The position numbers and the translations under genes are program-made. From Calditrichota bacterium (lineage in GTDB: Bacteria > CLD3), in assembly GCA_008501735.1 (NCBI GenBank), contig QQUF01000045.1, positions 1-64,000 of the forward strand: DNA of 64,000 nucleotides, given 5' to 3'. Under the pieces are notes generated by a model. That model saw only the letters and a program-made list of their open reading frames with translations, did not search any database and was not told where the DNA came from. Of the stretch, positions 16,371 through 43,202 are shown piece by piece. Every line of letters begins with the position of its first letter. Position 1 is the stretch's first letter.

Positions 16371-16394
16371 CAAATTTTTAAAACAAAGATGTTT

Positions 16395-19300
16395 ATGCCT
16401 TACAAAATCATTTCAAAAATTGCATCTGGAACTTTCGGAACAGTTTACAAAGCTCAAGAATCAACTAAAGGTGAATTCTACGCACTAAAATTAATTCACG
16501 AAAATTACAAAACCCCTATAGAACTGAAACGAATCAAACGAGGTTTTGAAACTGCACAAAAAGTCTCACACCCAAATTGTGTTAAAATGATTGAATGGTA
16601 CGAGGAAAAAGACCAAATCGGTTTTGTGATGGAATTTGTGGATTCCGTAGGGAACAAAAATCTTTGTTCCCTACAAAATAAAATCTCAAAAATCATTCAA
16701 ATTTCAAATGGACTTGAAGCACTTCACTCAAGAGGAATAATTCACAGAGACCTAAAACCTTCAAATATTCTTGAGGATAAAAACGGACAAATTAAAATCA
16801 CAGACTTTGATTTGGTTAAAACACAAGAGGCTTCAACAATTACAAATTCAAAATCGTTTTTGGGAACAGTAAAATTCTCTTCCCCCGAACAGTGCAAAGA
16901 TTCAAGCAAAATTGACCACAGAAGCGACCTTTACTCACTCGGAATAATTTTTTATAAACTTCTAACTAACAGATTTCCTTTTGATGGAGATTCCGTAACA
17001 AATATTATTCTTGGACATATAAGAACTCCTCTGATTTCTCCGACTCAATTTAATCCCGAAATCCCAATTGAGATTGAAAATGTTGTCAAAAAATTATTAG
17101 CAAAAAATCGAAATGACAGGTTCAATTCGGCAAAAGAAGTAGTCGAAAAACTCCACGTATTTTTAGAAACTCCAACCGAAACTCAAATCCAAACTTCAAG
17201 TGATTTTCTTCTTTATCCAAGATTTATCGGAAGAGAAAATGATTTTAAGAAACTTGAAAAATCATTTTCAAAAACTTCGGAAAGAAAACCACAGTTTGTT
17301 TTGATTTCAGGCAAATCGGGAAGTGGTAAGACCCAACTTTGGAAAGAATTTAAAGAAGGATTTTCTGATAGAGAAACACTTTACCTTAACACAAAATGCA
17401 AGGAAAATTCCACAAGTCTTGAACCGTTAAGAGAAGTTTTATTTCAATGTTTAGAGATTTTGGAAGGATTTTCCGACAATGAAAAACTTCCCTATTTTGG
17501 GAATTTCTGTAGAGACTTGGAAATTATTTTACCGCAAATTTCACAACTTAGCTTTTTTGAAAAACTACCTCAAACCGTAAAACTTTCTCAAGAAGATGGA
17601 ATTTTTAGATTGTTTGAGGCAGTAGTAACCTTGCTCAAAAATTTGCAGAAAGAAAAGATATTAGTTTTGTTTTTTGACGATTTACAATGGGCAGATTCGC
17701 AAACAACTAAATTTTTACACTTTCTACAAAACAACTTTAAAAATGAAAAACTTTTGTTTGCAGGAACTTTAAGACCAAATTTTTCTAAATCCGAACTCAA
17801 AGAGAATTTTATAGAAAATTGCTCCCAAATAGAACTTGAGTCTTTAACTCTTGGGCAAGTAAAAGAAGTGTTGACTTCAATGCTCGGACAAGTTGAACCT
17901 GTAGAAACCAATTTTGCACAGTTGATTTTGGAGAAGACGGAAGGAAATCCACTTTTTATTCAAGAAATTATGTTTCACTTATTGGAGCAGAAGAAAATTT
18001 ATAAGAAAAAAAATAAGTGGGTTCTTTCTGAAAGTGAGATTTTGTCCGAAGAATTACCAAAAAGTATTCATTCGACAATTACAAAAAGAATGGAAGTTCT
18101 TCCAAAATCGGTTAAGAACATTTTGCAGATTGCTTCGGTAATTGGTAAAAGTTTTGATTTTGAATTACTCAAAATTCTTTTGCCAAATTTATTGGAAGTC
18201 GAAATTCAAAAAGCACTTTTAAAATCTTGTGAAGAAAATTATTTGACATCATTTTCAGAGAATTATGAATTTTATCACGACTCAATTCGTGAGACTTTAG
18301 AGAAACAAATTCAGTCAAAGAATAAAATTAAATTCCACAAACAAATTGCGAAATATCTCGAAAGAAAGTTTGACGGTGAAAACGAAGATTTGATTTTACA
18401 GCTTGCACATCATTTTTACGAAGCAAAATTAAAACAAAAAGCAAAGAAGTATTGTTTGTCTGCAAGTAAGGTTGCTGAAAAAAAATACTCAATCTCAAAT
18501 GCCATTGATTTTTTGACAAAAGCTATTGAATTAGAAGTAGATAAAGTCAAAATCATTTCTTTGACGATAAAAAAAGCACTTCTTATGAGAACTTTGGGTG
18601 TTCCTAACGAACCTTTGAAGATTGCAAAAAAGGCACACAAGCTTTCATTAGAATTGAATGATGAGAATTTAATTGTAGATTCTCTTTTAGTAGTAGGCAA
18701 CGAAGAAATCCAAAACTTTTTGTTTGAAGAAGGTTTTGCATCTTTAAATGAAGGATTGAAAATTTCTAAGAAGTTAGGAGATGAAACAAGACTTTCAAAA
18801 GCCTTGTTTAAGCTAGGTCAATATTACACAATGAAAGGTGATTTTGAAGAATCAAATTCTTATTGCCAAAAAGCACTAAAGTTAGCGATAAGTAATGGTT
18901 TAAAAGAGCTGGAAATGAAAGTCAATTTTAATATTGCAGTTAATTTCCAAAATATTTGGGAATTTGAAAAAGCCTTAAAATACTTAGAAAATAGCATAGA
19001 ACTTTCTAAAGAATTAAAATTTATCTCAGAATCAATTTTTTATGAGACTTCTAAAGGAGTAATTTTAAGAAACTTAGGGAAACTCGAAGAATCTTATAAC
19101 CTTTTTCTAAAAAATCTTACGAAAACCCAAAAATACGGATTTTATGAAGGAATAATTACAGCAACTTTCGGGATTAGCAATTATTTTTTCATAAAAGCCA
19201 ATTACTCAAAATCAATTCCTTATTTGGAAAAAAGTATCTCTATTGCCGAAAAAATTAATGACCCAAAAGCCCTTTTGGAAGGCTTCCAAAACTATTCTTC

Positions 19301-21440
19301 AGTTCAATTTTTAATGGGAAATTTTGAAAAAAGTAATGAGTGCTTAAGAAAAGTTTGGATACTTGCAAATACTTCTAATACAAAAAAAGATTTTGCAACT
19401 TATTATAAAACAAAAGGCTTAAATCAATTTGCTCAAAAAGAGTTTGAAGCATCTGCTGAATCATTTTCCAAATCAATTCCTTTTAGAAATAATGACTATT
19501 CGGTCGGAGGAGTTTTGTTTCTCAAAGCAAATTCGCTTTTTGAACTTGGTGATTTGGAAAGTGCACAAAAAGAAAACAAACAAGCAAAAAACTTAGCAGA
19601 AAAAGTAAACGACCTTCAAACAATTACCAAATCCAAAATCCTTTCTCTAAAAATTGATTTTAACTTCGGTTTGCAAAAAAAAGCATTGGAAGGTTTGTTA
19701 GAAATTACTGAAACAGAAAAAAATGAGAAATTACTTGCAACAGCACTTTTTGAGTTTTGTTCACTTTTTGCAAAAAATCAAAATCTTACTTTGCTCCCCG
19801 GCAAAAAAATAAATTTTGAAAGTTACAGAAAAAGAACACTTGAGCTTTTCCGAAAATTAATCCAAAATGACGAAAGTTTTGAGCTTAAAGAAAAACTAAT
19901 CATTCTTGAAAACCTCAAAAATGAATCGGGAATCTTTCATTCAGGTTTCTTAAACTCACTTGTTCCTTTGATGGAACCCGAAACAATTTTGAGCGAATCA
20001 GTTGAATACCTAACTACGCAAACACAATCTAATAATTGCTTTATTGTCCTTAGAAATAAAATAACAGGAAAATTTGAACCTTGTTTCTTTTCCAAAAATT
20101 ACGAAGACAAAGAAATTGATTTTAGTCAAACGATTTTGGAGGAAGCAATTAGAACCAATCAATCAATTTTGGTAGAAAATGCTTTGGATTCCGAGAAATT
20201 CAAAAGTAATGAAAGTATCATTGGTAAAATTTTCCTTTCTGTAATTTCCGTTCCATTTGGGAAAGATGGTGAAGCAATCGGAGCAATTTATTTAGATAGA
20301 ACAAATCCTGAAAATGATGTTTACCAAAATTCCGACTTAGAAAAGGTAAAAGGAATCGGTAAAGTTTTGTTGCCTGTAATCCAAAAACAAAACGAAAACC
20401 TAACTTTAAAAATCAAATCTCAAATTCAAGAATTAGGAATTTTTATCGGTAACAGCCCAAAAATGCAAAAAGTTTATGAAGAAATTGAAAATGCTGCAAA
20501 CTACAATTTCCCAGTTTACATTTTTGGAGAAACAGGAACAGGAAAAGAACTTGTTGCAAATGCTTTACACAAACTTTCACCGCGAAGAAATGAGCCTTTT
20601 GTAGCGTTAAACTGTTCGGCAATTCCAAAAGACTTAGCAGAAAGCGAACTTTTCGGACACAAAAAAGGAGCTTTTACAGGAGCTACTTTTGATAAAAAAG
20701 GTGTTTTTGAATTAGCGGAAAATGGAACTCTTTTGCTCGATGAAGTTGGCGACCTTAGTTTGGACAACCAAGCAAAACTACTTAGAGTCATTCAAGAAAA
20801 AAAGCTAAGAGTAATCGGTTCTGAAAAAACCACGAAGGTAAATGCAAGAATCCTTGTTGCCACTCACAAGAACTTAGAAGAGGAAGTGCAAAAAGGGAAT
20901 TTCCGTGAAGATTTGTTACACCGATTAGATGTTTTGAAAATATTAGTTCCACCACTAAGGGAAAGAATTGAAGACATTCCACTTTTGGCGTTTCACATTT
21001 TGGAAAAATTCAATTTGGAATCAGGTAAAAAAAACAAAGGGCTTTCCAAAGATATTATTAAGGATTTTGAAAATTATAAATGGAAAGGAAATGTCAGAGA
21101 GTTAGAAAACAGAATTATCAAAGCCTCAGTCAAAAAGAAAAAAGATGTGCCTTTGACATTAAAAGATTTTGATTTTCTAAATCCCAAAAAGTCTGAAAAA
21201 GTAATTCAAATTACCCCTAACGAATCTCAAAATCTAAATTCTGAAAACCTAATTAATTTGGTTCACAAATTAGAAGGTGAAACAATTTATGAAAAATTAG
21301 CAACTGTCGAAAAAGCAATTATTACCCAAGCATTGAATGAGTACAACTGGAATAAAACAAAAGTATCCGCGAAGCTTGGAATTAGTAGAATGCAAATCAA
21401 CAGAATAATTGCACGTTTTAATCTTGTGAAAAAAAGTTGA
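16395..21440 (+). CDS. Giant fused regulator 1: Ser/Thr kinase – STAND ATPase – TPR – GAF – sigma-54 activator
   Basis: A 1,681-residue cytoplasmic protein. The start at the second ATG (16395, MPYKIISKIAS) matches the paralogue; ATG 16389 would add two residues. Domains: protein kinase (1-260; 'IASGTFGTVYKA', Lys32, 'HRDLKPSN' 117-124, 'TDFDLVK' with DFD in place of DFG, APE-like 'SSPEQC'); STAND/AAA ATPase (about 275-560; Walker A 'GKSGSGKT' 306-313, Walker B 'LVLFFDDLQWAD'); TPR array (about 640-1150); GAF (about 1205-1345); sigma-54 AAA+ domain ('GETGTGKE' near 1378, 'GAFTGA' near 1425, 'LLLDEVGDLS'); Fis-type helix-turn-helix at the C-terminus ('NWNKTKVSAKLGISRMQINRII'). It should combine signal input, phosphorylation and DNA-bound activation of sigma-54 promoters. 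Two T9SS propeller genes follow. Confidence 0.88.
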   Translation: MPYKIISKIASGTFGTVYKAQESTKGEFYALKLIHENYKTPIELKRIKRGFETAQKVSHPNCVKMIEWYEEKDQIGFVMEFVDSVGNKNLCSLQNKISKIIQISNGLEALHSRGIIHRDLKPSNILEDKNGQIKITDFDLVKTQEASTITNSKSFLGTVKFSSPEQCKDSSKIDHRSDLYSLGIIFYKLLTNRFPFDGDSVTNIILGHIRTPLISPTQFNPEIPIEIENVVKKLLAKNRNDRFNSAKEVVEKLHVFLETPTETQIQTSSDFLLYPRFIGRENDFKKLEKSFSKTSERKPQFVLISGKSGSGKTQLWKEFKEGFSDRETLYLNTKCKENSTSLEPLREVLFQCLEILEGFSDNEKLPYFGNFCRDLEIILPQISQLSFFEKLPQTVKLSQEDGIFRLFEAVVTLLKNLQKEKILVLFFDDLQWADSQTTKFLHFLQNNFKNEKLLFAGTLRPNFSKSELKENFIENCSQIELESLTLGQVKEVLTSMLGQVEPVETNFAQLILEKTEGNPLFIQEIMFHLLEQKKIYKKKNKWVLSESEILSEELPKSIHSTITKRMEVLPKSVKNILQIASVIGKSFDFELLKILLPNLLEVEIQKALLKSCEENYLTSFSENYEFYHDSIRETLEKQIQSKNKIKFHKQIAKYLERKFDGENEDLILQLAHHFYEAKLKQKAKKYCLSASKVAEKKYSISNAIDFLTKAIELEVDKVKIISLTIKKALLMRTLGVPNEPLKIAKKAHKLSLELNDENLIVDSLLVVGNEEIQNFLFEEGFASLNEGLKISKKLGDETRLSKALFKLGQYYTMKGDFEESNSYCQKALKLAISNGLKELEMKVNFNIAVNFQNIWEFEKALKYLENSIELSKELKFISESIFYETSKGVILRNLGKLEESYNLFLKNLTKTQKYGFYEGIITATFGISNYFFIKANYSKSIPYLEKSISIAEKINDPKALLEGFQNYSSVQFLMGNFEKSNECLRKVWILANTSNTKKDFATYYKTKGLNQFAQKEFEASAESFSKSIPFRNNDYSVGGVLFLKANSLFELGDLESAQKENKQAKNLAEKVNDLQTITKSKILSLKIDFNFGLQKKALEGLLEITETEKNEKLLATALFEFCSLFAKNQNLTLLPGKKINFESYRKRTLELFRKLIQNDESFELKEKLIILENLKNESGIFHSGFLNSLVPLMEPETILSESVEYLTTQTQSNNCFIVLRNKITGKFEPCFFSKNYEDKEIDFSQTILEEAIRTNQSILVENALDSEKFKSNESIIGKIFLSVISVPFGKDGEAIGAIYLDRTNPENDVYQNSDLEKVKGIGKVLLPVIQKQNENLTLKIKSQIQELGIFIGNSPKMQKVYEEIENAANYNFPVYIFGETGTGKELVANALHKLSPRRNEPFVALNCSAIPKDLAESELFGHKKGAFTGATFDKKGVFELAENGTLLLDEVGDLSLDNQAKLLRVIQEKKLRVIGSEKTTKVNARILVATHKNLEEEVQKGNFREDLLHRLDVLKILVPPLRERIEDIPLLAFHILEKFNLESGKKNKGLSKDIIKDFENYKWKGNVRELENRIIKASVKKKKDVPLTLKDFDFLNPKKSEKVIQITPNESQNLNSENLINLVHKLEGETIYEKLATVEKAIITQALNEYNWNKTKVSAKLGISRMQINRIIARFNLVKKS
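16647..16674. repeat. Palindromic repeat inside the kinase domain of regulator 1
   Basis: GTAGGGAACAAA (16647-16658), spacer AATC, then TTTGTTCCCTAC (16663-16674) form a perfect 12-bp stem. It is in frame and encodes the segment between 'EFVDS' and 'SLQNKISK', just after the kinase hinge. The paralogue carries a different palindrome with the same AATC spacer at the same codon position. The GTAG…CTAC boundary resembles dispersed intergenic palindromes. Confidence 0.75.
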
Positions 21441-21564
21441 GTTTTAAACTTAACTTTTCTGGACTTTAAAACCTTTTTTATAATTCTTCGCCAAGTGAGC
21501 TTGATAAAAAGACTTTTAGAATGAATCGATAATCGAAAACTCGGACATTTTTCTATCATTCTAA

Positions 21565-21864
21565 CTGATGTTACGCAAAAGAAAATAAGAACTCGGTAAA
21601 AGCTAAATTTTCTGATAAAATTTGACGTTGCTTTAACCACCCCATTTTTTCCTTTTCAGAAACTAAAGTTTCAAACGAAAAAATTCCTCTCCTTCAAAAG
21701 GGTAGAAAAAAACAAGTTGTGCTTTATACAACCGAAAACTCTCCTCCTTTACAAGGAGGAGACAGAAAACAAATTCAAGCGAAGCGTTAGAATTTTTTTC
21801 AGAGGTGGATTAAACACAAGTCAAAATAAAAAAATCAAACTTTTCCTAATTTGCGTAACATCAG
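21565..21864. mobile_element. 300-base element bounded by 15-bp inverted repeats (MITE-like or IS remnant)
   Basis: CTGATGTTACGCAAA (21565-21579) and its exact reverse complement TTTGCGTAACATCAG (21850-21864) face each other across 300 bases. No transposase frame lies between them. The interior includes a perfect hairpin (21740-21762). Flanking target-site duplication was not evident. Size and termini fit a non-autonomous transposable element or a collapsed insertion sequence. Confidence 0.5.
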
Positions 21865-22060
21865 ATTCTAAACTAACGTGAGTTTGAGAAAAAACTGAAC
21901 TTTATCTAGCTCCTAACGCTCTTCGTAAGGGTTTTCTTTATGGAAGCCAAGATAAATATCTTTGAGAAAGGGCAACCACAAGGGTTTGCCCATACAATCT
22001 TTGTAAGAGCTTTTTTTCAAAAAATTATTTCTCGAACTCATCTTTATTCCCTCTTCAAAG

Positions 22061-22225
22061 TGTAACAGATTGTTCCACTTATAATTCCCATCTCATACTT
22101 TCTAACTTTTATTCTGCATTTAAACCCTACGACTAAAGACTGTAACAATTTGTTATAGCGACCGAAACACCTGTTTTTTCAATAACTTACAAACAGGAAA
22201 ATCAAAAATGTAACAATTAGTTCCA
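22061..22225 (+). promoter_or_regulatory. Three dyad sites, candidate upstream activating sequences
   Basis: Copies: 22061-22077 TGTAACA-GAT-TGTTCCA, 22141-22157 TGTAACA-ATT-TGTTATA, 22209-22225 TGTAACA-ATT-AGTTCCA. The left half-site is identical three times; the right half-site is an imperfect inverse of it. They lie about 80-245 bases upstream of the -24/-12-like promoter, the usual distance for sigma-54 enhancer sites bound by a Fis-type helix-turn-helix. The candidate binder is regulator 1, encoded next door. Confidence 0.5.
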
Positions 22226-22304
22226 AGTTCTTAGTTTAGCATCAATCTATTTTATTTGTTCTAAATATTTATTTATTAACAAATTATACTTTCAAATTCC
22301 CTTT

Positions 22305-22320
22305 TGGCATTGAGTTTGGA
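22305..22320 (+). promoter_or_regulatory. Sigma-54 (-24/-12)-like promoter of propeller B
   Basis: TGGCATTGAGTTTGGA matches the sigma-54 consensus TGGCAC-N5-TTGC closely at -24 and has GG-N10-G with correct spacing, but the -12 dinucleotide is GG rather than GC. It ends 53 bases before the propeller B ATG. Aligned with 30766-30781, the shared pattern is TTTGGCA..GA.TT.G.AAC. Sigma-54 dependence is inferred from this and from the adjacent activator gene. Confidence 0.45.
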
Positions 22321-22373
22321 ACTAACAATTTTGTCAAACAACAAATTCATTACAAACCAAAGGAAACAAGACA

Positions 22374-23843
22374 ATGAAAAAACTTACAACTTCACTTATC
22401 ACACTTAGCTTAGGGTTAACTTTAGCCTCAAATTCTTTCGCAATTAAAATGTATTGGAGTGATACTATAGATCATAAAATTCAACGAGCAAATTTAGATG
22501 GCTCAAGTGTAGAAGATTTAGTTTCAATTCCAGGTAATAGCGATATTTATGGAATAGCATTAGATATTAATAATTCAAAAATGTACTGGGCTGATTATGG
22601 AGAAGATAAAATCCAACGAGCGAACTTAGATGGTTCGAATGTAGAAGATTTGATAACAGTATTTGACTCTATATTTAACTTTGATCCTTTGGGAATTGCA
22701 TTAGACTTAACAAATTCCAAAATATATTGGGTTAATAATGGTGATAAGATAATGCGAGCAAATTTAGATGGCTCAAATGCGGAAGACATTGTCACCGGAC
22801 TTAGTAGCGGAGTTGTAGATATAAATTTAGATATTATAAATTCAAAAATTTATTGGAATGATGGTGGAACAGGTAAGATCCAAAAAGCAAATTTAGATGG
22901 CTCGAATGTGGAAGATGTCGTAACAGGAATAAATTCTACTTATTTTATGGCTTTAGACCCAATAAATTCTAAAATATATTGGACAGGTTTTGATGCACAC
23001 AAAATTGAACGAGCTAATTTAGATGGCTCAAATGTGGAAGATGTCGTAACAGGTTTAGATGAGCCGTTTGATATAACTCTTGATATTGCAAATTCCAAAA
23101 TATATTGGACAGAAGCTGACAATAACAAAATCCAACGTTGCAATTTTGACGGAACTAATGTTGAGGACCTTGTTACAGGATTATCGGAACCCGGTGCAAT
23201 TGTTCTTGGTGTTCCTGACATTGCACTTTCAGTAGAACTTGCTTCTTTCTCCGCTCGCCAAATAGAAAACTCAATCCAACTCAATTGGTCAACAGCTTCC
23301 GAAACTGAAAACGAAGGTTTCAACATTTACAGAAAAATAAGTGGAAGTGAATTTGTCCAAATCGCTTCTTACAAAAGCCACAGAGAACTCAGAGGGCAAG
23401 GAAACACTTCTGTTGAGACAAATTACACTTTCACTGACAATTCAAAATTACAAAACAATGAATTTTATACTTACGTAATTTCTGATGTTGAAACAAACGG
23501 ACTTGAAACAAAGCACGAAGAAAATTCTCAAAGCGTCTTTTTTGAAATAAAAACTCAAGCTGTAAAAAGATTTGAGTTAGCTCAAAATTTCCCTAATCCT
23601 TTTAACCCAAGCACAACAATTTCTTACCAACTTGCCAAAGACACAAGAGTAAGTCTCAAGATTTACAACGAAAAAGGTGAATTTGTAAAAGAACTCACAA
23701 ACGGCTTTCAGCACGAAGGTTCACACAATGCAGCTTGGGACGGAACAGATGAAAATGGAAAATCAGTTTCAAGCGGAACTTACTTCTACAAACTCCAAGC
23801 AGGAACTTTCACACAAACTAACAAAATGATTTTGTTGAAATAA
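22374..23843 (+). CDS. Exported six-bladed YWTD propeller protein with T9SS sorting domain (copy B)
   Basis: A 489-residue exported protein with a signal peptide ('MKKLTTSLITLSLGLTLASNSFA'). Six YWTD blades run from about residue 24 to 285 ('KMYWSDTIDHKIQRANLDGSSVEDL', 'KMYWADYGEDKIQ…', 'KIYWVNNGDKIM…', 'KIYWNDGGTGKIQ…', 'KIYWTGFDAHKIE…', 'KIYWTEADNNKIQ…'). A fibronectin-like domain ('SVELASFSARQIENSIQLNWSTASETENEGFNIYRK') and a T9SS type A domain ('LAQNFPNPFNPSTTISYQL…') follow. AAAGGAAAC lies 10 bases before the ATG as a ribosome-binding site. It is the first gene after regulator 1 and its control region, and is followed by close paralogue C. Confidence 0.9.
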   Translation: MKKLTTSLITLSLGLTLASNSFAIKMYWSDTIDHKIQRANLDGSSVEDLVSIPGNSDIYGIALDINNSKMYWADYGEDKIQRANLDGSNVEDLITVFDSIFNFDPLGIALDLTNSKIYWVNNGDKIMRANLDGSNAEDIVTGLSSGVVDINLDIINSKIYWNDGGTGKIQKANLDGSNVEDVVTGINSTYFMALDPINSKIYWTGFDAHKIERANLDGSNVEDVVTGLDEPFDITLDIANSKIYWTEADNNKIQRCNFDGTNVEDLVTGLSEPGAIVLGVPDIALSVELASFSARQIENSIQLNWSTASETENEGFNIYRKISGSEFVQIASYKSHRELRGQGNTSVETNYTFTDNSKLQNNEFYTYVISDVETNGLETKHEENSQSVFFEIKTQAVKRFELAQNFPNPFNPSTTISYQLAKDTRVSLKIYNEKGEFVKELTNGFQHEGSHNAAWDGTDENGKSVSSGTYFYKLQAGTFTQTNKMILLK

Positions 23844-23866
23844 ATTTGCTCTCTCCTCTTGTGAAG

Positions 23867-23885
23867 GCCTCATTCAAAATGAGGC
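23867..23885 (+). terminator. Hairpin between tandem propellers B and C
   Basis: GCCTCATT (23867-23874), loop CAA, AATGAGGC (23878-23885) form a perfect 8-bp stem. It is not followed by a T-run, so it may be an mRNA-processing or attenuation hairpin separating the two genes rather than a full terminator. Confidence 0.4.
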
Positions 23886-23926
23886 TTGCACTTTAATTAA
23901 AGATTTAAAATTTAGGAAACAAGGCA

Positions 23927-25399
23927 ATGAAAAAACTTACAACAACACTCTTAACACTTAGTTTAGGCTTAACCTTAGCTTCAACTTCTTTCGCAGATAA
24001 AATGTATTGGACGGATTATGGAACAAAAAAAATCCAACGTTCTGACTTAGATGGTTCAAATATCGAAGACCTTGTTACAACAGGGTTAGGTTTTCCTTTT
24101 GGAATGACCTTAGATTTAACTAATTCCAAAATGTATTGGGCGGATGGTTCGACAAATAAAATCCAACGTTCTGACTTAGATGGTTCAAATATCGAAGACC
24201 TTGTTACAACAGGGTTGAGTTTTCCTGTAGGAATCACCTTAGATTTGACTAATTCCAAAATTTATTGGTCAAACTACGGTGACTTAAATATTCAAAGGTC
24301 TAATTTAGATGGCACAAATGTGGAAGAAGTAGTTACAAATCTGGATACTCCTCTTGGAATTGATTTAGATTTAACAAATTCCAAAATTTATTGGGTTGAC
24401 ACAGGAACGAATAGAATCCAAAGAGCAAACTTAGACGGTTCAAGTGTAGAAAATTTAGTTACATCAGGGGTAGATAATTGCAGATTTATTAAGTTAGATA
24501 TAGCTAGCTCAAAAATGTATTGGACTGATACTTCAGCAGATAAAATCCAAAGAGCTAATTTAGACGGTTCTAATGTGGAAGATTTAGTTACTACAGGATT
24601 AAGTTCCCCTGTAGGTTTAGCTTTAGATATTCCAAATTCGAAAATGTATTGGACTGATACTTCAGCAGATAAAATCCAAAGAGCAAACTTAGACGGTTCT
24701 AATGTGGAAGATTTAGTTACTACAGGACTAAGTTCTCCTTCTGCAATCGCACTTAATCTTACAGACGCACCACTTTCGGTAGAATTAAATTCTTTCTCTG
24801 CTCGTCAATTTGAAAATTCAATCCAACTTAATTGGTCAACAGCTTCCGAAACTGAAAACGAAGGTTTCAACATTTACAGAAAAACAAGTGGAAGTGAATT
24901 TGTCCAAATCGCTTCTTACAAAAGCCACAGAGAACTCAAAGGACAAGGAAACACAACATTTGAGACAGGTTACACTTTCACTGACAATTCAAAATTACAA
25001 AACAGTGAATTTTACACTTACGTAATTTCTGATGTTGAAACAAACGGAGTTGAAACCAAGCACCAAGAAAATTCTCAAAGCATAAAATTTGTTTTTGATG
25101 AAGAAATTTCACAAACAAAACTTGACTACATTTTAGCTCAAAATTTCCCTAATCCTTTTAATCCAAGCACAACAATTAATTTTCAAGTTGCGAAAACCCA
25201 AGATGTTAGACTTGCAGTTTATAATTTAAACGGAAAACTTGTGAAGGAACTTGTCAACGAACCGAAAGCCAAAGGCTCACACAATGCAGTTTGGGACGGA
25301 ACAGATGAAACCGGAAAATCTGTCTCAAGTGGAACTTATTTCTACAAAATCTCGGCAGGCACTTTCACACAAACTAACAAAATGATTTTATTAAAATAA
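23927..25399 (+). CDS. Exported six-bladed YWTD propeller protein with T9SS sorting domain (copy C)
   Basis: A 490-residue paralogue of copy B with an almost identical signal peptide and six blades. Blades 1-2 and blades 5-6 are near-identical at the DNA level with a 129-base (43-codon) period, for example from 24032 to 24161 and from 24512 to 24641, which shows recent internal blade duplication. The fibronectin-like domain resembles copy B closely, while the T9SS domain has a more divergent start ('ILAQNFPNPFNPSTTINFQVAKTQDVRLAVYNLNGKLVKELVNEPKAKG'). TAGGAAAC precedes the ATG. It is probably co-transcribed with copy B and ended by the terminator at 25421-25450. Confidence 0.9.
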   Translation: MKKLTTTLLTLSLGLTLASTSFADKMYWTDYGTKKIQRSDLDGSNIEDLVTTGLGFPFGMTLDLTNSKMYWADGSTNKIQRSDLDGSNIEDLVTTGLSFPVGITLDLTNSKIYWSNYGDLNIQRSNLDGTNVEEVVTNLDTPLGIDLDLTNSKIYWVDTGTNRIQRANLDGSSVENLVTSGVDNCRFIKLDIASSKMYWTDTSADKIQRANLDGSNVEDLVTTGLSSPVGLALDIPNSKMYWTDTSADKIQRANLDGSNVEDLVTTGLSSPSAIALNLTDAPLSVELNSFSARQFENSIQLNWSTASETENEGFNIYRKTSGSEFVQIASYKSHRELKGQGNTTFETGYTFTDNSKLQNSEFYTYVISDVETNGVETKHQENSQSIKFVFDEEISQTKLDYILAQNFPNPFNPSTTINFQVAKTQDVRLAVYNLNGKLVKELVNEPKAKGSHNAVWDGTDETGKSVSSGTYFYKISAGTFTQTNKMILLK

Positions 25400-25420
25400 A
25401 TTTGCTCTCTTACTAGAATA

Positions 25421-25450
25421 GCCTGACAATTAAAATTGTCGGGCTTTTTT
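25421..25450 (+). terminator. Rho-independent terminator after propeller C
   Basis: GCCTGACAAT (25421-25430), loop TAAA, ATTGTCGGGC (25435-25444) followed by six T. The stem has one G·U pair. It closes the propeller B–C unit before the leader of regulator 2. Confidence 0.85.
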
Positions 25451-25452
25451 GT

Positions 25453-25487
25453 TTTGTGAAATCTAGATTTCTGTTTTAAGTTTTCTA
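25453..25487 (+). promoter_or_regulatory. Leader element shared by the two giant regulator genes (copy 2)
   Basis: TTTGTGAAATCTAGATTTCT followed by GTTTTAAGTTTTCTA corresponds to 16335-16370 upstream of regulator 1. This copy includes the perfect palindrome GAAATCTAGATTTC. It lies 23 bases before the regulator 2 ATG and directly follows the T-run of the preceding terminator, so any promoter for regulator 2 has to be here. Confidence 0.45.
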
Positions 25488-25510
25488 ACCCAATTAAACA
25501 GAGATACAGA

Positions 25511-28500
25511 ATGCCTTACAAAATCATACGTAAAATCGCCTCAGGAACTTTCGGCACAGTTTACAAAGTCCAGGAAACAACTAACAGTGAATTCTACGCC
25601 TTAAAATTAATCCACGAAAATTACAAAAGCCCTAAAGAACTGAAAAGAATCAAACGTGGTTTTGAGTCAGCTCAAATAGTATCACACCCAAATTGTGTAA
25701 AAATGATTGAATGGTATGAGGAAAAAGACCAAATTGGTTTTGTGATGGAATTTGTAGATTCCGTAGAGACGCAAAATCTCGCGTATAGTGAAAAGAATAA
25801 TTCCCTTGTAGAGACGCAAAATCTTGCGTCTCTACAAAATAAAATTTCAAAAATAATTCAAATTGCAAATGGGCTTGAAGCACTTCACTCAACAGGAATC
25901 ATTCACAGAGATTTGAAACCTGCAAACATTCTTGAAACCAAAGATGGTCAAATTAAAATCACTGATTTTGATTTAGTGAAACTTGACGATTCCTCCACTC
26001 TCACAGCTTCGGGAGCTTTCCTTGGAACTGCAAAATATTCTTCTCCTGAACAATGCCAAAACTCTGCTAAAATTGATTTCCGTTCTGACCTTTACTCACT
26101 TGGAGTTCTTTTCTACCAATTAGTTTGTGGCAGAGTTCCTTTTGAAGGAGATTCATTGGCAGAAATTGCACTTGGTCACATTCGTACTCCACTAATTTCT
26201 CCAAAACAATTTGTTCCTGATTTACCAGAAGTTTTGAATACAGTAATTGCCAAACTCCTAAAAAAAAATCCAAAAGATAGATTTCAATCTGCTCAAGAAG
26301 TCTCAAAGATTTTAGATACTTTTTTGAAAGAAGGAAAAGTTGAAAACTTGGAAACTTTCGGTGATTTTCTTTTAACTCCGGGTTTCGTTGGACGAGGAAA
26401 AGAATTTTCAGAGTTGAGCAAAATCTTTTCAGAAACAACTAACAAGCTGAAAACAATTCTAATTAGTGGTGAACAAGGAGTTGGAAAAACAAAATTGTGG
26501 AAAGAATTCAGACTTGGTTTACCAAAAAACTCAACTTTAGTGTTTGAGACAAAGTGCAGACAAAATGGAAACACTTTTGAACCACTTCAAACAATTCTTG
26601 CAAAAGCATTAGAACAAATCGAGAAACTTTCTGGCAAAGAACAAGCTGAAAAAATTGGACGATTTGGAAAAGACCTTTGTAAGATTTTTCCACAACTTGA
26701 ACAAAAATTTTTTTTTAAACATTTACTGGAAATTCCAGCTCTTGAGGGTATTGAATCAGAGCTTAGACTTTTTGAAGCATTTACAAATTTCCTAAATAAT
26801 ATTCAAAAAGAAAAACAGACTTTAGTTTTCTTTTTCGACGACTTACAATGGATTGATGAACTTAGTCTAAAGTTTCTTGGTTATTTAACAAGGAGTTTAT
26901 CTAATAATTCAATTTTAGTTTTGGGAACTATTAGAAAAGAACAAATTGAAAATGTATTAGAAGAAATTGATGATTCTAAGATTCTCACTCTCGAAAATTT
27001 TGAATTAGAAGAAGTCCGTGAATTTCTCACAAAAATGTTTGGCAAAGCTGACCCTGTAAACACAAGATTTTGTGAAGAAATTTTGAAACGCACAGGTGGA
27101 AATGTTTTGTTTGTTCAAGAGCTAATTTTTCACTTGTTAGAAACAAAGGAATTGAATAAAAGTGAGGGTGATTGGGATTTAGGTGAAGAATCTTTCACAA
27201 AACTAAAACTACCAAAATCAATTCAAAGTGTTGTTGGTGAACGTCTAAATTTCTTACCTAAAAATTTACTAAAGTTACTCGAAGTTGGTGCACTTCTCGG
27301 AAAGTTTTTTACAACGAAAGTAGTGGCAGAAGTCCTTTCTTTAGAAGAAAATGAAGTTGAAAGTAAATTAGCAAACTCGACTTTTGAAGGTATTTTAGAA
27401 AAATCGGAAAGTAATATTTTTGAATTCGTAAACGACTCTTTTAGAGAAAGCCTTTCAAATTCGCTAAAACCAAATACCAAAAAGTCAATTCACAGAAAGA
27501 TAGCAGTTTACTTAGAGAAGCGTTTTAATGAATTTGAAATTTTGGAAGAACTTGCTAATCATTACTTTGAAGCTGGTGTGAAGAAAAAAACTTTTAATTA
27601 CTGTTTGAAAGCTGGAGTTTCTTTAAAAGAGGTTTATGACTATGCGAAAGCAGAAACATTTATTTCAAATGCAATTACTGCAATTGAAGCGAGAAATATT
27701 TCCGAAAGAATAAATATTTCTAACCTAAAGGCTGAATGCTTAGAAAAGTTGGGTGATTTTGAACAAGCCGAAAAAATTTATTCCCATAATTTAAAATTGG
27801 CATTTGATTCAAATTCTGAAAATGAAATAATAGCTGATATTTATTTTGCTTTGGGTAGAATTAATTCTGAATTATTTAATATTGAAAATACTCAAAAATA
27901 TTTTAAACTATCTTTAAACCTTTACATCAAATTAAGAGATTTTAAATTTATAATTTTAATTCATAAAGAATTGTCTCGTTCATTTATTTATCAAAATAAA
28001 TTTTCTGAAGCCCAAAAATATTTAGATTTAGCATTAGAAGTTGCTGAAAGTAATAAAATTTATGATGAAGTGATTAGTTGTTATACTTACCAATGTACTA
28101 TTCTTGGAAGTGTCGGAAAATTCGATGAGGTTTTGATTTATGCAAAAAAGATTAATGATTTTGAAGAAAAGCAAGGAAGTTCAAGGAAAGATTTTACGGG
28201 TTTAATTTTTCTCGGTTGGGTTTATAAAAACTTAACAAATTTTGTAAAAGCATCTTTTTATTTTGAAAAAGCTGTTAAAAATTTAGAGAAGAACAGTTAT
28301 TCTGATACATATTTAAGAGCGTTAAACGGTGTTAGCCTTTGTAATTTTGAATTAGGAAATTTTGAAAAAGCAATTGAATTCTCTTTGAAAACTATCAGAC
28401 AAGCAATCCTAATTAAAGATTTTAGACAAGTAGGAAATTCTTACAACGACATTGCATTATTTTATACAACCTACGGAAACTTTGATGAAGCCTCTAAAAT

Positions 28501-30568
28501 GCTTGACAAAAGCATTGAAGTATCAAGAAAAATTAATGATGAATTTCAAATTGCAAATTCATTTTATCTTTTGGGAGAGATTGAATTTTTTAAAAGCAAT
28601 TTTTTAGAAGCGATTTCAAATTATGAAGAATCTGTTAAAATTTATAGTAAAATTGAAATGGAGTTCAAAGCTCCAATTTTATTATACAATCTTTCTAAGT
28701 CAAATTATAAACTCAGAAACTACCCAAAAGCATTAGAAAATATATCTAAAAGCCAAGAACTTGCCCAAAAATTTGAAAATGAGAATGTAATTTTCAATTG
28801 TCAAATTTTGAAAAATAAAATTGATTTTATGTTGGGAAATAAAGAGCAAGCAATTCAAAATATTTACTCTTTTATTCAATCTGAAAATGATGAAAGAAAA
28901 TCAGCAATTTTAAGAATTTCATTCTGTAATCTTTTTGCAAAAGACCGAAGTTTGGGAATTTTGATTTCAGAGGATTTTGATTTTCAAGAATTTCTTTTAG
29001 AAACAAAAAGTTTAACTGAAAAGGTTCTGAAAGAGAAGTTTAATTATGAAATTTCTAAGGACTTAGAAGAACTGAAACTTCTTGAAAAACCTTCTATTAG
29101 CTTGGATTTAGATTTAATTTCCTCGTTTGTGAAATGGATTGAACCTTCAAATCTTTTTAGCGAACTTTTAGAATTTTTGAAAAAACAAACAAATGCAACT
29201 TCGGCAATTCTTATTTTACAGAATCCAATTACCAAAAAATTTGAAATTGCAAGTTCAACGAATGAAATTTCAAATGAGGATTTAGATTTTAGCAAAGGTA
29301 TTTTTGAAGAATCAATAAAAAATCATAAACCAATTCTAATTGAGAATGCTTTAGAGAATCCAAATTTTAGTTCAAACCAAAGTGTTGTCGGTAAGATTTT
29401 CCTTTCGGTTTTAGTTGTCCCAGTAAGTCTAAATAAAAAAGTTATTGGAGCAATTTACGTTGAACGCTCAAAATTGGAATTAGAAAAATTTAGAATCCCT
29501 GATTTGCAACAAGTCGAAAGAATTGCAAAACTTATTTCACCGATTTTGCAAAAACAAAACGAAAACAAAGTTCTTAAAACTGAATCAGAAGTTAAAAAAT
29601 TAGGAATCTTCATTGGTAACAGCCTAAAAATGCAAAAATTATATCAGCAAATCCAAAATGCTGCGACAGTTGATTACACAACTTACATTTACGGCGAAAC
29701 CGGAACAGGGAAAGAATTAGTTGCAACTGCTCTGCACAAATTAAGTCTAAGAAAAGACAAACCTTTTGTAGTAATTAATTGCTCGGCAATTCCGAAAGAT
29801 TTAGCTGAAAGTGAACTTTTCGGACATTCAAAAGGTGCGTTTAGTGGAGCAATTTCTGATAAAACAGGAAAATTTGAACTTGCAAACGAAGGAACACTTT
29901 TCCTTGATGAAGTCGCAGAATTATCTTTGGAAATTCAAGCAAAACTGCTCCGAGCAATTCAACAAAAGGAAATTTGGCGAGTCGGTGGAAACAAAGGAAT
30001 AAAAGTAAACATAAAAATCATTGTTGCAACTCACAAAAATCTTAGCGAGGAAGTTCAGAAAGGTAATTTCCGTGAAGACCTTTTTCACAGATTAGATGTT
30101 TTGAAAATCGAAGTTCCTCCTTTGAGGGAAAGGTTAGAAGACATTCCACTTTTAGCAAATTCAATTTTAGAAAAAGTCAGTAAGGAGTTGAACAAAAAAT
30201 TCTTGGGTTTCTCACAAAGTGGAATTAAATCTCTTTTTGAACAAAGATGGAAGGGGAATGTCAGAGAATTAGAAAATGTGATTACAAAATCAGTAATAAA
30301 TCTTCAAATTGAAAAGTCATTAAGCGAAAATGATTTATTCCCAAATCAAATTACCAAACGAAATTCAGATGAACCTTTAGAAGTAATCCTTAATGGAAAA
30401 TCTTTTGATGAGAAATTAGAAAACTTGGGTAAAAAAATCTTGTTAACAAACTTAGAGTCCACAAATTGGAACAAACGGCAATCGGCAAGAGAATTAGGAA
30501 TTAGTAGAAATAGGCTCAAACGTTTGATTTCTAAGTATGAGCTTGTTGAACCACATTCTTCACTTTAG
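25511..30568 (+). CDS. Giant fused regulator 2: Ser/Thr kinase – STAND ATPase – TPR – GAF – sigma-54 activator
   Basis: A 1,685-residue paralogue of regulator 1 with the same domain order. Kinase (1-275): 'IASGTFGTVYKV', Lys32, 'HRDLKPAN' (132-139), 'TDFDLVK' again with DFD. STAND/AAA ATPase: 'GEQGVGKT' Walker A, 'LVFFFDDLQWID' Walker B. TPR array (about 660-1150), strongly diverged from regulator 1. GAF (about 1225-1360). Sigma-54 AAA+: 'GETGTGKE' near 1395, with the sigma-54-contact loop reading 'GAFSGA' near 1442 instead of GAFTGA, then 'LFLDEVAELS'. C-terminal Fis-type helix-turn-helix ('NWNKRQSARELGISRNRLKRLI'). The DNA-recognition helix and TPR region differ from regulator 1, implying a different signal and DNA target. 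Propeller D and the FG-GAP protein follow. Confidence 0.88.
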   Translation: MPYKIIRKIASGTFGTVYKVQETTNSEFYALKLIHENYKSPKELKRIKRGFESAQIVSHPNCVKMIEWYEEKDQIGFVMEFVDSVETQNLAYSEKNNSLVETQNLASLQNKISKIIQIANGLEALHSTGIIHRDLKPANILETKDGQIKITDFDLVKLDDSSTLTASGAFLGTAKYSSPEQCQNSAKIDFRSDLYSLGVLFYQLVCGRVPFEGDSLAEIALGHIRTPLISPKQFVPDLPEVLNTVIAKLLKKNPKDRFQSAQEVSKILDTFLKEGKVENLETFGDFLLTPGFVGRGKEFSELSKIFSETTNKLKTILISGEQGVGKTKLWKEFRLGLPKNSTLVFETKCRQNGNTFEPLQTILAKALEQIEKLSGKEQAEKIGRFGKDLCKIFPQLEQKFFFKHLLEIPALEGIESELRLFEAFTNFLNNIQKEKQTLVFFFDDLQWIDELSLKFLGYLTRSLSNNSILVLGTIRKEQIENVLEEIDDSKILTLENFELEEVREFLTKMFGKADPVNTRFCEEILKRTGGNVLFVQELIFHLLETKELNKSEGDWDLGEESFTKLKLPKSIQSVVGERLNFLPKNLLKLLEVGALLGKFFTTKVVAEVLSLEENEVESKLANSTFEGILEKSESNIFEFVNDSFRESLSNSLKPNTKKSIHRKIAVYLEKRFNEFEILEELANHYFEAGVKKKTFNYCLKAGVSLKEVYDYAKAETFISNAITAIEARNISERINISNLKAECLEKLGDFEQAEKIYSHNLKLAFDSNSENEIIADIYFALGRINSELFNIENTQKYFKLSLNLYIKLRDFKFIILIHKELSRSFIYQNKFSEAQKYLDLALEVAESNKIYDEVISCYTYQCTILGSVGKFDEVLIYAKKINDFEEKQGSSRKDFTGLIFLGWVYKNLTNFVKASFYFEKAVKNLEKNSYSDTYLRALNGVSLCNFELGNFEKAIEFSLKTIRQAILIKDFRQVGNSYNDIALFYTTYGNFDEASKMLDKSIEVSRKINDEFQIANSFYLLGEIEFFKSNFLEAISNYEESVKIYSKIEMEFKAPILLYNLSKSNYKLRNYPKALENISKSQELAQKFENENVIFNCQILKNKIDFMLGNKEQAIQNIYSFIQSENDERKSAILRISFCNLFAKDRSLGILISEDFDFQEFLLETKSLTEKVLKEKFNYEISKDLEELKLLEKPSISLDLDLISSFVKWIEPSNLFSELLEFLKKQTNATSAILILQNPITKKFEIASSTNEISNEDLDFSKGIFEESIKNHKPILIENALENPNFSSNQSVVGKIFLSVLVVPVSLNKKVIGAIYVERSKLELEKFRIPDLQQVERIAKLISPILQKQNENKVLKTESEVKKLGIFIGNSLKMQKLYQQIQNAATVDYTTYIYGETGTGKELVATALHKLSLRKDKPFVVINCSAIPKDLAESELFGHSKGAFSGAISDKTGKFELANEGTLFLDEVAELSLEIQAKLLRAIQQKEIWRVGGNKGIKVNIKIIVATHKNLSEEVQKGNFREDLFHRLDVLKIEVPPLRERLEDIPLLANSILEKVSKELNKKFLGFSQSGIKSLFEQRWKGNVRELENVITKSVINLQIEKSLSENDLFPNQITKRNSDEPLEVILNGKSFDEKLENLGKKILLTNLESTNWNKRQSARELGISRNRLKRLISKYELVEPHSSL
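25763..25837. repeat. Double palindromic repeat inside the kinase domain of regulator 2
   Basis: The second unit is a perfect 14-bp stem: TTGTAGAGACGCAA (25806-25819), AATC, TTGCGTCTCTACAA (25824-25837). The first (from 25763, GTAGAGACGC…GCGTATAG) has the same left arm and a decayed right arm. Together they encode the insertion 'VETQNLAYSEKNNSLVETQ' just after the kinase hinge, at the codon where regulator 1 carries an unrelated palindrome. GTAGAGACGC palindromes are a dispersed repeat type I recall from other bacterial genomes. Confidence 0.75.
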
Positions 30569-30632
30569 TAAAGCATTACAGCAAAAGGATCTAATACGAA
30601 CCACCATAAATTCAATAATTTAAATTATTTAT

Positions 30633-30696
30633 AAAAAAGGGTCTAGAGTGAACCCAATGATTTTAAAATCATTGGGTTCACTCTAGACCCTTTTTT
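30633..30696. terminator. 64-base perfect palindrome, strong bidirectional terminator-like structure
   Basis: The two 32-base arms are exact reverse complements centred between 30664 and 30665 (TTTT|AAAA), with GGGTCTAGAGTGAACCCAAT in the left arm. The right arm ends in seven T, giving a classical terminator for regulator 2 on the plus strand; the A-run on the left does the same for the other strand. The stem is far longer than an ordinary terminator. Confidence 0.8.
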
Positions 30697-30765: not shown

Positions 30766-30781
30766 TGGCACAGAATTAGTA
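30766..30781 (+). promoter_or_regulatory. Sigma-54 (-24/-12)-like element of propeller D
   Basis: TGGCACAGAATTAGTA has a perfect -24 box (TGGCAC) and GG-N10-G spacing, but the -12 box reads AGT instead of TGC. It aligns with 22305-22320 over TTTGGCA..GA.TT.G.AAC. It lies 90 bases before the propeller D ATG. Taken alone the match is weak; its support is the shared position and sequence. Confidence 0.4.
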
Positions 30782-30871: not shown

Positions 30872-32347
30872 ATGCACAAATTTACAAAAGCCTTCATTTC
30901 TTTAAGTTTACCACTTTGCTTTATCGCAAACGTCAATGCACAGAAAATTTATTGGTCCGACCAACCAAATTTGAAAAGAGCAGATCTAGATGGCTCAAAT
31001 GTAGAAGACATTACTCCAGCAATTTTTAACGGTCCAAGAGCCGTTACAGTTAATAAAACAGAATCAAAGATTTATTGGGTTGACCAAAACGGATTTAATT
31101 ATCGCAAATCTGATTTAGACGGTACAAATTTGGAAACTTTGTTCAATACAACAGGTGGTGCAGGAACTGCAATGGCAATTGATGAAACAAACTCAAATAT
31201 TTATCACGGAAATGTTAGTTTTGTAGGTGGCTTTAACCCATTTATTGAAAAAAGAAATTTAGATGGTTCGAACAACTCTACAATTATTAGTTCTTTATCT
31301 GGTAGTGTCAAAGATATTGCATTAGATGTTAATAACTCTTTAATTTATTTTACAGTTTCAAATACAATCCAAACAGTAAACTTTGATGGCTCTAACCAAC
31401 AAACTATTGTTACAGCAACAAGTAATATTCAAGACATTACTTTAGATTTGACGAATAATAAACTTTACTACACAGACCAAAACACTGGTTTAAATACTGG
31501 AAAAGTAGTAAGAACAGACTTAGATGGTTCAAATCCAACAGACATTCTTACAGCCTTATCTAATCCTGAAGATATTCATTTAGATGTAACAAATTCTCAA
31601 ATCTATTGGGGAGACGGTGGAGAAGATAAAATTTTTAGATGCAATTTTGACGGAACAGGAACTGAGACAATTGTCACTGGAGTCAGTATTTCTATTGCTG
31701 ATTTCTCATTAGTCTCAGCAGATGCACCACTTTCTGTAGAATTAAATTATTTCACAGCTCGTCAAATTGAAAACTCAATTCAGCTTTCCTGGGCAACGGC
31801 TTCTGAAACTGAAAATGAAGGTTTTAATGTTTATAGAAAATTAGGAAATGAGGATTTTGTAAAAATCGCTTCTCACAAATCTCACACTGAACTTAAAGGG
31901 CAAGGGAACACTTCTTTAGAAACTTTTTACACCTTTAATGACAACTCAAAATTACAAAATGGCGAATTTTACACTTACCTAATTTCAGACGTTGAAACAA
32001 ATGGAATTGAAACTAAGCACGAAGAATCTGCTCAAAGTGTTCTTTTTGAAGTCCAATCACAGGAAGTCAGAAAATTCGAGTTAAAACAAAACTATCCTAA
32101 TCCTTTTAATCCAAGTACAACAATTTCTTACAATCTTGCAAAAGATTCAAAAGTAAGTCTCAAGATTTACAATGAAATAGGTGAATTTGTCAAAGAACTC
32201 ACAAATGGTTTTCGTTACGAAGGTTCACACAATGTAATTTGGGACGGAACTAACAACAATGGAAAATCTGTTTCAAGTGGAACTTACTTCTACAAAATTT
32301 CAGCAGGAACTTTCACACAAACTAACAAAATGATTCTACTCAAATAA
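30872..32347 (+). CDS. Exported six-bladed YWTD propeller protein with T9SS sorting domain (copy D)
   Basis: A 491-residue exported protein with signal peptide 'MHKFTKAFISLSLPLCFIANVNA'. The six blades are more divergent than in copies A-C ('KIYWSDQPNLKRADLDGSNVEDI', 'KIYWVDQNGFNYRKSDLDGTNLETL', 'NIYHGNVSFVGGFNPFIEKRNLDGSN', 'LIYFTVSNTIQTVNFDGSNQ', 'KLYYTDQNTGLNTGKVVRTDLDGSN', 'QIYWGDGGEDKIFRCNFDGTG'). The fibronectin-like domain and T9SS type A domain from about residue 316 onward are nearly identical to those of the next gene. AAGGAAC precedes the ATG. It is the first gene after regulator 2 and its control region. Confidence 0.9.
   Translation: MHKFTKAFISLSLPLCFIANVNAQKIYWSDQPNLKRADLDGSNVEDITPAIFNGPRAVTVNKTESKIYWVDQNGFNYRKSDLDGTNLETLFNTTGGAGTAMAIDETNSNIYHGNVSFVGGFNPFIEKRNLDGSNNSTIISSLSGSVKDIALDVNNSLIYFTVSNTIQTVNFDGSNQQTIVTATSNIQDITLDLTNNKLYYTDQNTGLNTGKVVRTDLDGSNPTDILTALSNPEDIHLDVTNSQIYWGDGGEDKIFRCNFDGTGTETIVTGVSISIADFSLVSADAPLSVELNYFTARQIENSIQLSWATASETENEGFNVYRKLGNEDFVKIASHKSHTELKGQGNTSLETFYTFNDNSKLQNGEFYTYLISDVETNGIETKHEESAQSVLFEVQSQEVRKFELKQNYPNPFNPSTTISYNLAKDSKVSLKIYNEIGEFVKELTNGFRYEGSHNVIWDGTNNNGKSVSSGTYFYKISAGTFTQTNKMILLK
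31817..32190 (+). repeat. 374-base direct repeat, copy 1 (C-terminal export module)
   Basis: Identical base for base to 34148-34521 by direct comparison. It encodes the fibronectin-like domain from 'EGFNVYRK' through most of the T9SS sorting domain. The identity ends at 32191 (c versus a). Confidence 0.9.
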
Positions 32348-39222: not shown

Positions 39223-39252
39223 TTTGAATTCTTTTTAAGTTTAGAGTGAATT

Positions 39253-43161: not shown

Positions 43162-43202
43162 TTTTAAGTTATTTGAGTTTTGAGTTTGATTTTTTGAACT
43201 AA

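Follow-up and report, generated by a model that had tools for sequence, protein, structure and literature searches.

What might a single polypeptide control when it carries a protein kinase at one end and a sigma-54 activator at the other? Two genes for such giants are present in the window (the whole stretch of 64,000 nucleotides analyzed here). The initial annotation described each product as one chain comprising a kinase, a STAND ATPase, a TPR array, a GAF domain, a sigma-54 enhancer-binding protein (EBP) module, and a Fis-type helix-turn-helix (HTH), and the Pfam search found every one of these domains in both proteins. Both open reading frames (ORFs) are open throughout, so the frame between the kinase and AAA+ domains is intact.

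Domain architecture of the two giants

The two genes and their Pfam domains (with E-values) are as follows.

16389..21440, plus strand: giant 1, 1,683 aa in an uninterrupted frame; the likely true start is 16395, a start common to the paralogues
16401-17147, plus strand: kinase domain with DFD triplet (Pkinase, 3.3e-50)
17220-17735, plus strand: STAND ATPase domain (AAA_16, 6.4e-25)
about 18609-19928, plus strand: TPR array (TPR_12, 5.2e-15)
19977-20351, plus strand: GAF domain (1.8e-4; 22.5 bits against a cut-off of 22.4)
20445-20942, plus strand: sigma-54 AAA+ domain (Sigma54_activat, 2.8e-70)
20958-21149, plus strand: AAA+ lid (AAA_lid_14, 5.2e-17)
21297-21404, plus strand: Fis-type HTH (HTH_8, 3.2e-9)
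25511..30568, plus strand: giant 2, 1,685 aa in an uninterrupted frame
25517-26296, plus strand: kinase domain with DFD triplet (Pkinase, 4.8e-49)
26384-26920, plus strand: STAND ATPase domain (AAA_16, 6.1e-27), followed by TPRs (TPR, 5.0e-27)
29147-29539, plus strand: GAF domain (GAF_2, 1.4e-5; both GAF models slightly below cut-off)
29612-30112, plus strand: sigma-54 AAA+ domain (Sigma54_activat, 3.5e-70)
30125-30370, plus strand: AAA+ lid (AAA_lid_14, 2.6e-17)
30416-30538, plus strand: Fis-type HTH (HTH_8, 7.3e-6)

Both kinases retain the glycine loop, the VAIK lysine, the HRD aspartate, the DFG aspartate (within DFD), and an APE-like glutamate (as SPE). The AAA_16 domains contain Walker A and a Walker B of the hhhhDD type and are followed by helical repeats, as in STAND ATPases, and the AAA+ domains combine Walker A and B with a GAFTGA-type motif and a C-terminal Fis-type HTH, as in EBPs. 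The motifs originally quoted, HRDLKP, FFDDLQW, and GETGTGKE, occur in both proteins; GAF[TS]GA reads GAFTGA in giant 1 and, in giant 2, GAFSGA. The paralogues share a GAF-like block that contains 'VGKIFLSVIAVPL'. The gene for sigma-54, which the initial annotation proposed to look for elsewhere in the genome, is present in a single copy; its product looks like an ordinary RpoN, with region I and an RpoN-box-like motif.

A family of giants in the genome and beyond

The count of two giants is correct for the window but understates the genome total: the genome (4.14 Mb, 59 contigs, 100% complete) encodes about 20 members of the family, that is, about 18 besides these two. The genome contains 37 strong sigma-54 activator domains, 20 of which sit in ORFs longer than 1,100 aa, and all 23 kinase-domain matches in the whole genome fall in giants or contig-end pieces (17 complete ORFs, 2 giants truncated within the kinase at a contig end, and 4 N-terminal pieces running off contigs). 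Several contigs terminate within giants, a pattern that disruption of the assembly by near-identical kinase segments would produce.

Identity of the core group to giant 1 is 46-80% for the kinase and 53-78% for the EBP part, and 17-40% for the TPRs and 17-50% for the HTH; the kinase and EBP engine is constant across the paralogues, and the sensor and DNA reader are variable. The catalytic lysine, the HRD aspartate, and the DFG aspartate are intact in most copies, with the core group carrying the unusual triplet DFD instead of DFG. In L025 (9493-14523), the kinase HRD is replaced by HGN, the EBP Walker B is altered (DGI) with loss of the glutamate, and no TGGCAYN5TTG-type promoter (see below) was found beside the giant; considering these three features, L025 may simply be decaying. 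In L023, HRD is replaced by HQK, and the ATP-binding lysine motif did not align; this giant of 1,559 aa lies at 9440-14119 of contig C24, about 2 kb past the window end. Given the degenerate kinases of L023 and L025, the family does not depend on catalysis, and the architecture can persist without an active kinase. In the shorter paralogue L011, the AAA_16 Walker A did not align. Separately, about nine genes for AAA_16 (STAND) proteins cluster at positions 37641-98167 of contig C41 in G000; the products have no kinase matches and are roughly 900-1,170 aa long.

A search of other genomes showed that the fusion is not unique to this genome, an idea that we rejected because the same architecture occurs across the phylum and outside it. 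The phylum of the window is represented by nine genomes only. In its other family, six of the seven genomes have one giant, with kinase and activator in one ORF of 1,624-1,852 aa, and the seventh shows a contig-end piece. G001, from the family of the window, has about six giants. Single copies in the other family compared with many in this one indicate that the expansion belongs to this lineage. Among the 386 genomes searched outside the phylum, full-length or near full-length matches occur in scattered families (examples are G248, G144, G156, G158, G112, G142, G109, G187, and G042), and in most of the extracted ORFs a single frame carries the motifs of both kinase and activator. At locus L080 of G248, one copy is split into adjoining genes of 1,191 aa and 525 aa.

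Sigma-54-type promoters beside the giants

Genes adjoining giants often encode secreted proteins with a T9SS-type tail, and a sequence of the form TGGCAY-N5-TTG lies just 3' of 11 of the 20 giants, preceding a secreted, often T9SS-tagged gene. In the window, the arrangement is as follows.

22061..22077, unstranded: enhancer-like palindrome, copy 1 of the giant 1 cassette, TGTAACAGATTGTTCCA (the three copies together give z = 7.0 relative to shuffles)
22141..22157, unstranded: palindrome, copy 2, TGTAACAATTTGTTATA
22209..22225, unstranded: palindrome, copy 3, TGTAACAATTAGTTCCA
22305..22318, plus strand: sigma-54-type promoter TGGCAT-tgagt-TTG, 69 bp 5' of the propeller gene
22374..23843, plus strand: predicted target, a secreted YWTD (Ldl_recept_b) propeller with a T9SS type A tail (domain search)
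23927..25399, plus strand: second YWTD propeller with a T9SS tail, without a TGGCAYN5TTG of its own
30587..30602, unstranded: candidate palindrome copy of the giant 2 cassette, the weakest, GGATCTAATACGAACC
30639..30690, unstranded: palindrome pair GGGTCTA-GAG-TGAACCC / GGGTTCA-CTC-TAGACCC of the giant 2 cassette (z = 5.0)
30766..30779, plus strand: candidate sigma-54-type promoter with one mismatch, TGGCAC-agaat-TAG
30872..32347, plus strand: predicted target, a secreted protein with YWTD repeats and a T9SS tail
32429..34678, plus strand: next gene in the same direction, a secreted FG-GAP_2 repeat protein of 749 aa with a T9SS tail

The T9SS sorting tail (TIGR04183) on the target genes scored 33.5, 39.1, 28.4, and 31.4 bits against a cut-off of 23. 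The second propeller gene is probably co-transcribed with the first. The pair at 30639..30690 jointly forms a long inverted repeat followed by T7, and this repeat may serve as a terminator for giant 2, either instead or in addition. Elsewhere in the window, positions 10572-12974 encode a protein in which a cyclophilin domain is joined to FG-GAP/propeller repeats and ends in a T9SS tail, and the minus strand at 35323-47111 encodes, in tandem, three secreted proteins each about 1,300 aa long, the one examined having Sortilin-Vps10 and fn3 domains.

A canonical TTGC weight matrix gave no clear excess (34 matches versus 28 in shuffles). TGGCAY-N5-TTG was derived after that scan by reading the same upstream regions, which makes the count for this genome partly post hoc, and the independent checks that matter are the spacer controls, G001, and the other phyla. 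Across about 353 kb around the giants, there are 17 matches. Of these, 14 are intergenic, although intergenic DNA makes up 11.5%, and 11 follow a giant on its strand at a distance of up to 1.1 kb, a zone that covers about 3% of the strand-bases searched. Six other spacer lengths combined gave 25 matches in the same DNA, 3 of them intergenic and none downstream of a giant. Genome-wide, the motif occurs 71 times versus 30 for the reversed pattern. At L018, the promoter precedes a propeller gene located upstream of its giant. No perfect adjoining promoter was found for 8 of the 20 giants, one of which, giant 2 of the window, has the one-mismatch candidate listed above.

In G001, the promoter directly follows the giants at L091, L095, and L097, with L095 resembling L012 in layout and target; at L099, from another family, it precedes the gene adjoining the giant. 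In other phyla, it lies 169-444 bp after the giants at L067, L071, L075, L077, and L078 (the last a 1,228-aa relative without a recognized kinase motif), and L083 and L084 are one-mismatch cases. A stricter ORF-based count for these phyla yielded 4 downstream matches for 13 giants and one off-spacer match. In G000, the -12 element is mostly TTGA (TTGGCAYN5TTGA, 28 versus 3 in the control; TTGGCAYN5TTGC, 6 versus 4), and it appears, from sequence, to be TTGA rather than TTGC in G000 and its relatives; in other phyla, the promoters beside giants mostly have TTGC. The predicted targets are unrelated to each other (propellers, a 1,934-aa MAM protein, and a CarboxypepD_reg protein) yet have the same arrangement, a putative -24/-12 promoter with upstream sites, as expected for genes controlled by an EBP.

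Cassette-specific palindromes

Most promoters have two or three copies of a palindrome upstream, the sequence of which differs by cassette: TGTAACANNTTGTTNCA for the window promoter at 22305, GTTACANNTTGTAAC at L024, GACACANNTTGTGTC at L018, TTAGGCGAANTGCCTAA at L010, TAGTCANNNTGACTA at L016, TGGCTCTN5AGAGCCA at L015, GTTTCCN6GGAAAC at L019, and CGTAACN6GTTACG after the giant of L014. Repeated palindromes were scored with composition weighting, adopted in place of an unweighted score because AT matches dominated the latter. Against dinucleotide shuffles, 14 of the 17 own-genome promoter regions had z > 3.3 (up to 17), although these regions are not all independent, four coming from the single C38 array. 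Control regions had a mean z of 0.28, with 3 of 50 exceeding 3, one being the L024 cassette left among the controls. No significant repeated palindrome was found at the promoter regions of L009, L012, L022, L095, L097, and L099.

Contig C38 (L085, L014) contains five sigma-54-type promoters in tandem, each preceding a T9SS-tagged gene. A TGTACTGN4CAGTACA pair lies before each of the five, at about -205 and -177; the regulator of this array is probably off the contig end.

When searched at 0-1 mismatch in 446 kb, most palindromes were confined wholly or mainly to their own cassette, with stray matches for win1, L024, L018, L016a, L016b, and, above all, L019. The more alike two HTHs are, the more alike are their palindromes (Mantel r = 0.57, p = 0.0005, n = 11 giant-cassette pairs, with site strings entered by hand and related sequences not independent). 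The most direct case joins L097 of G001, where the palindrome AGGCGATTCGCCT is present in a single clear copy, to L010: the two cassettes have nearly the same AGGCGA palindrome, and their HTHs are similar and share the helix 'NKRLDRLL'.

A model for the giants and its alternatives

Most giants adjoin a sigma-54-type promoter with cassette-specific palindromes, which supports the original proposal of a self-contained transcription switch. Every giant is probably a one-component sensor in the cytoplasm that also serves as a sigma-54 EBP dedicated to switching the adjacent surface-protein gene. At rest, the STAND module would be ADP-bound and monomeric, and the EBP part restrained. The TPR/GAF region would bind a signal, a step that the N-terminal kinase possibly gates or tunes, and would thereby cause the STAND module to load ATP and oligomerize, upon which the C-terminal AAA+ domains would form a ring. 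The Fis-type HTH would anchor this ring on its own palindrome, present two or three times at about 70-265 bp upstream of TGGCAY-N5-TTG, and an ATP-driven GAFTGA contact would open the sigma-54 polymerase at the promoter. The gene turned on would be the neighbor, usually encoding a secreted beta-propeller or another T9SS-tagged surface protein. As for the kinase, it may serve to license the switches, to tune them, or to cross-link them. More tentatively, and with somewhat less than even confidence, we suggest a set of about 20 one-protein sensors insulated from one another, each with its own signal and surface protein. They would have arisen by duplication, the sensor, HTH, and enhancer diverging together and the kinase and AAA+ remaining fixed; shared kinases may link these sensors for combinatorial surface choice.

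The role of the kinase could be larger than this. Under autophosphorylation in cis, which the initial annotation considered probable, a phosphorylated GAF/EBP part would switch transcription and the kinase would be the main control, as might be expected from the intact lysine and HRD and DFG aspartates of most copies and from the place of the kinase among the best-conserved parts (46-80% identity to giant 1 in the core group versus 17-40% for the TPRs). We nevertheless regard this as rather unlikely, considering that catalytic residues have been lost from L025 (HGN) and L023 (HQK), that the core group has DFD for DFG, and that a phosphosite is not predictable. A role in trans, in which the kinase would modify further giants or different proteins and the switches would be networked, is less likely still: fusion to private DNA-binding parts points to insulation, even though a cell would contain about 20 closely similar kinases, the other kinase-domain matches being contig-end pieces only.

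Regulation of the neighboring gene can itself be questioned. Some palindromes immediately follow the stop codon, and the second in the window precedes a T-run, so giants might bind near their own 3' ends for repression or termination, or the palindromes might be terminators or chance repeats. This is very improbable given the 2-3 copies spaced 18-90 bp apart, the adjoining TGGCAYN5TTG, the HTH-linked sequence, and the same palindrome pair before each promoter of the five-promoter array. We give the least credence to mere proximity, in which giants and surface-protein genes were duplicated as blocks with no regulation between them; paralogous blocks and contig breaks at giants do show recent duplication, but the promoter arrangement is common to unrelated targets and to other phyla.

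If each giant indeed switches its adjacent surface-protein gene, a eukaryotic-type kinase, a STAND switch, and sigma-54 activation would be united in one molecule with the cell surface as target. Because the family would constitute natural parallel regulators with matched DNA sites, two questions become testable, namely, how the specificity of Fis-type HTHs diverges and what a cis-fused kinase contributes to a sigma-54 activator. In addition, matched pairs of regulator and site could find use as orthogonal sigma-54 switches.

Comparison with known systems

Every module of the giants belongs to a known family, and the target assignment is the new result. Within the open-access literature, as distinct from subscription papers and database annotations, we found no description of a kinase-STAND-sigma-54 fusion or of a cassette of giant, promoter, and surface gene.

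Like EBPs of the NtrC/NorR/NifA class, the giants possess a complete AAA+ module with GAFTGA, lid, and Fis-type HTH; the top NCBIfam scores of the EBP part are NifA and NorR, all under cut-offs, and the top PDB matches are LuxO, NifA, and NtrC1. Unlike that class, their input consists of kinase, STAND, TPR, and GAF rather than a receiver, PAS, or GAF alone. Like STAND regulators (MalT) and kinase-STAND proteins, the giants run from kinase through STAND ATPase to helical repeats, but they have a sigma-54 activator as output, where those proteins have a LuxR-type HTH or no output at all. The Mycobacterium tuberculosis protein with a kinase and a MalT-like part is presumably PknK. Such a kinase and MalT-like protein is listed for that species (PMC1262709). 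Excerpts of an inventory of EBP types give 43% receiver, 12% PAS, 10% GAF, and about 3% PTS-linked proteins, and name no Ser/Thr kinase type (PMC3162934); in NorR, GAF can restrain the AAA+ domain (PMC2941729).

The TOMM kinase/cyclase fusion (TIGR03903) has the same kinase-STAND order and matches residues 279-713 of giant 1 with 208.7 bits, far below the cut-off of 705.75, but it ends in a cyclase. Control of PEP-CTERM proteins by PrsK-PrsR/RpoN (PMC9850573) likewise involves a surface-protein gene, a TGGCAC sigma-54 promoter, and a predicted enhancer. Whereas PrsK-PrsR is a two-component pair with exosortase cargo (PMC9850573), the giants number about 20, each regulating as one protein through private sites, and their cargo is T9SS-tagged.
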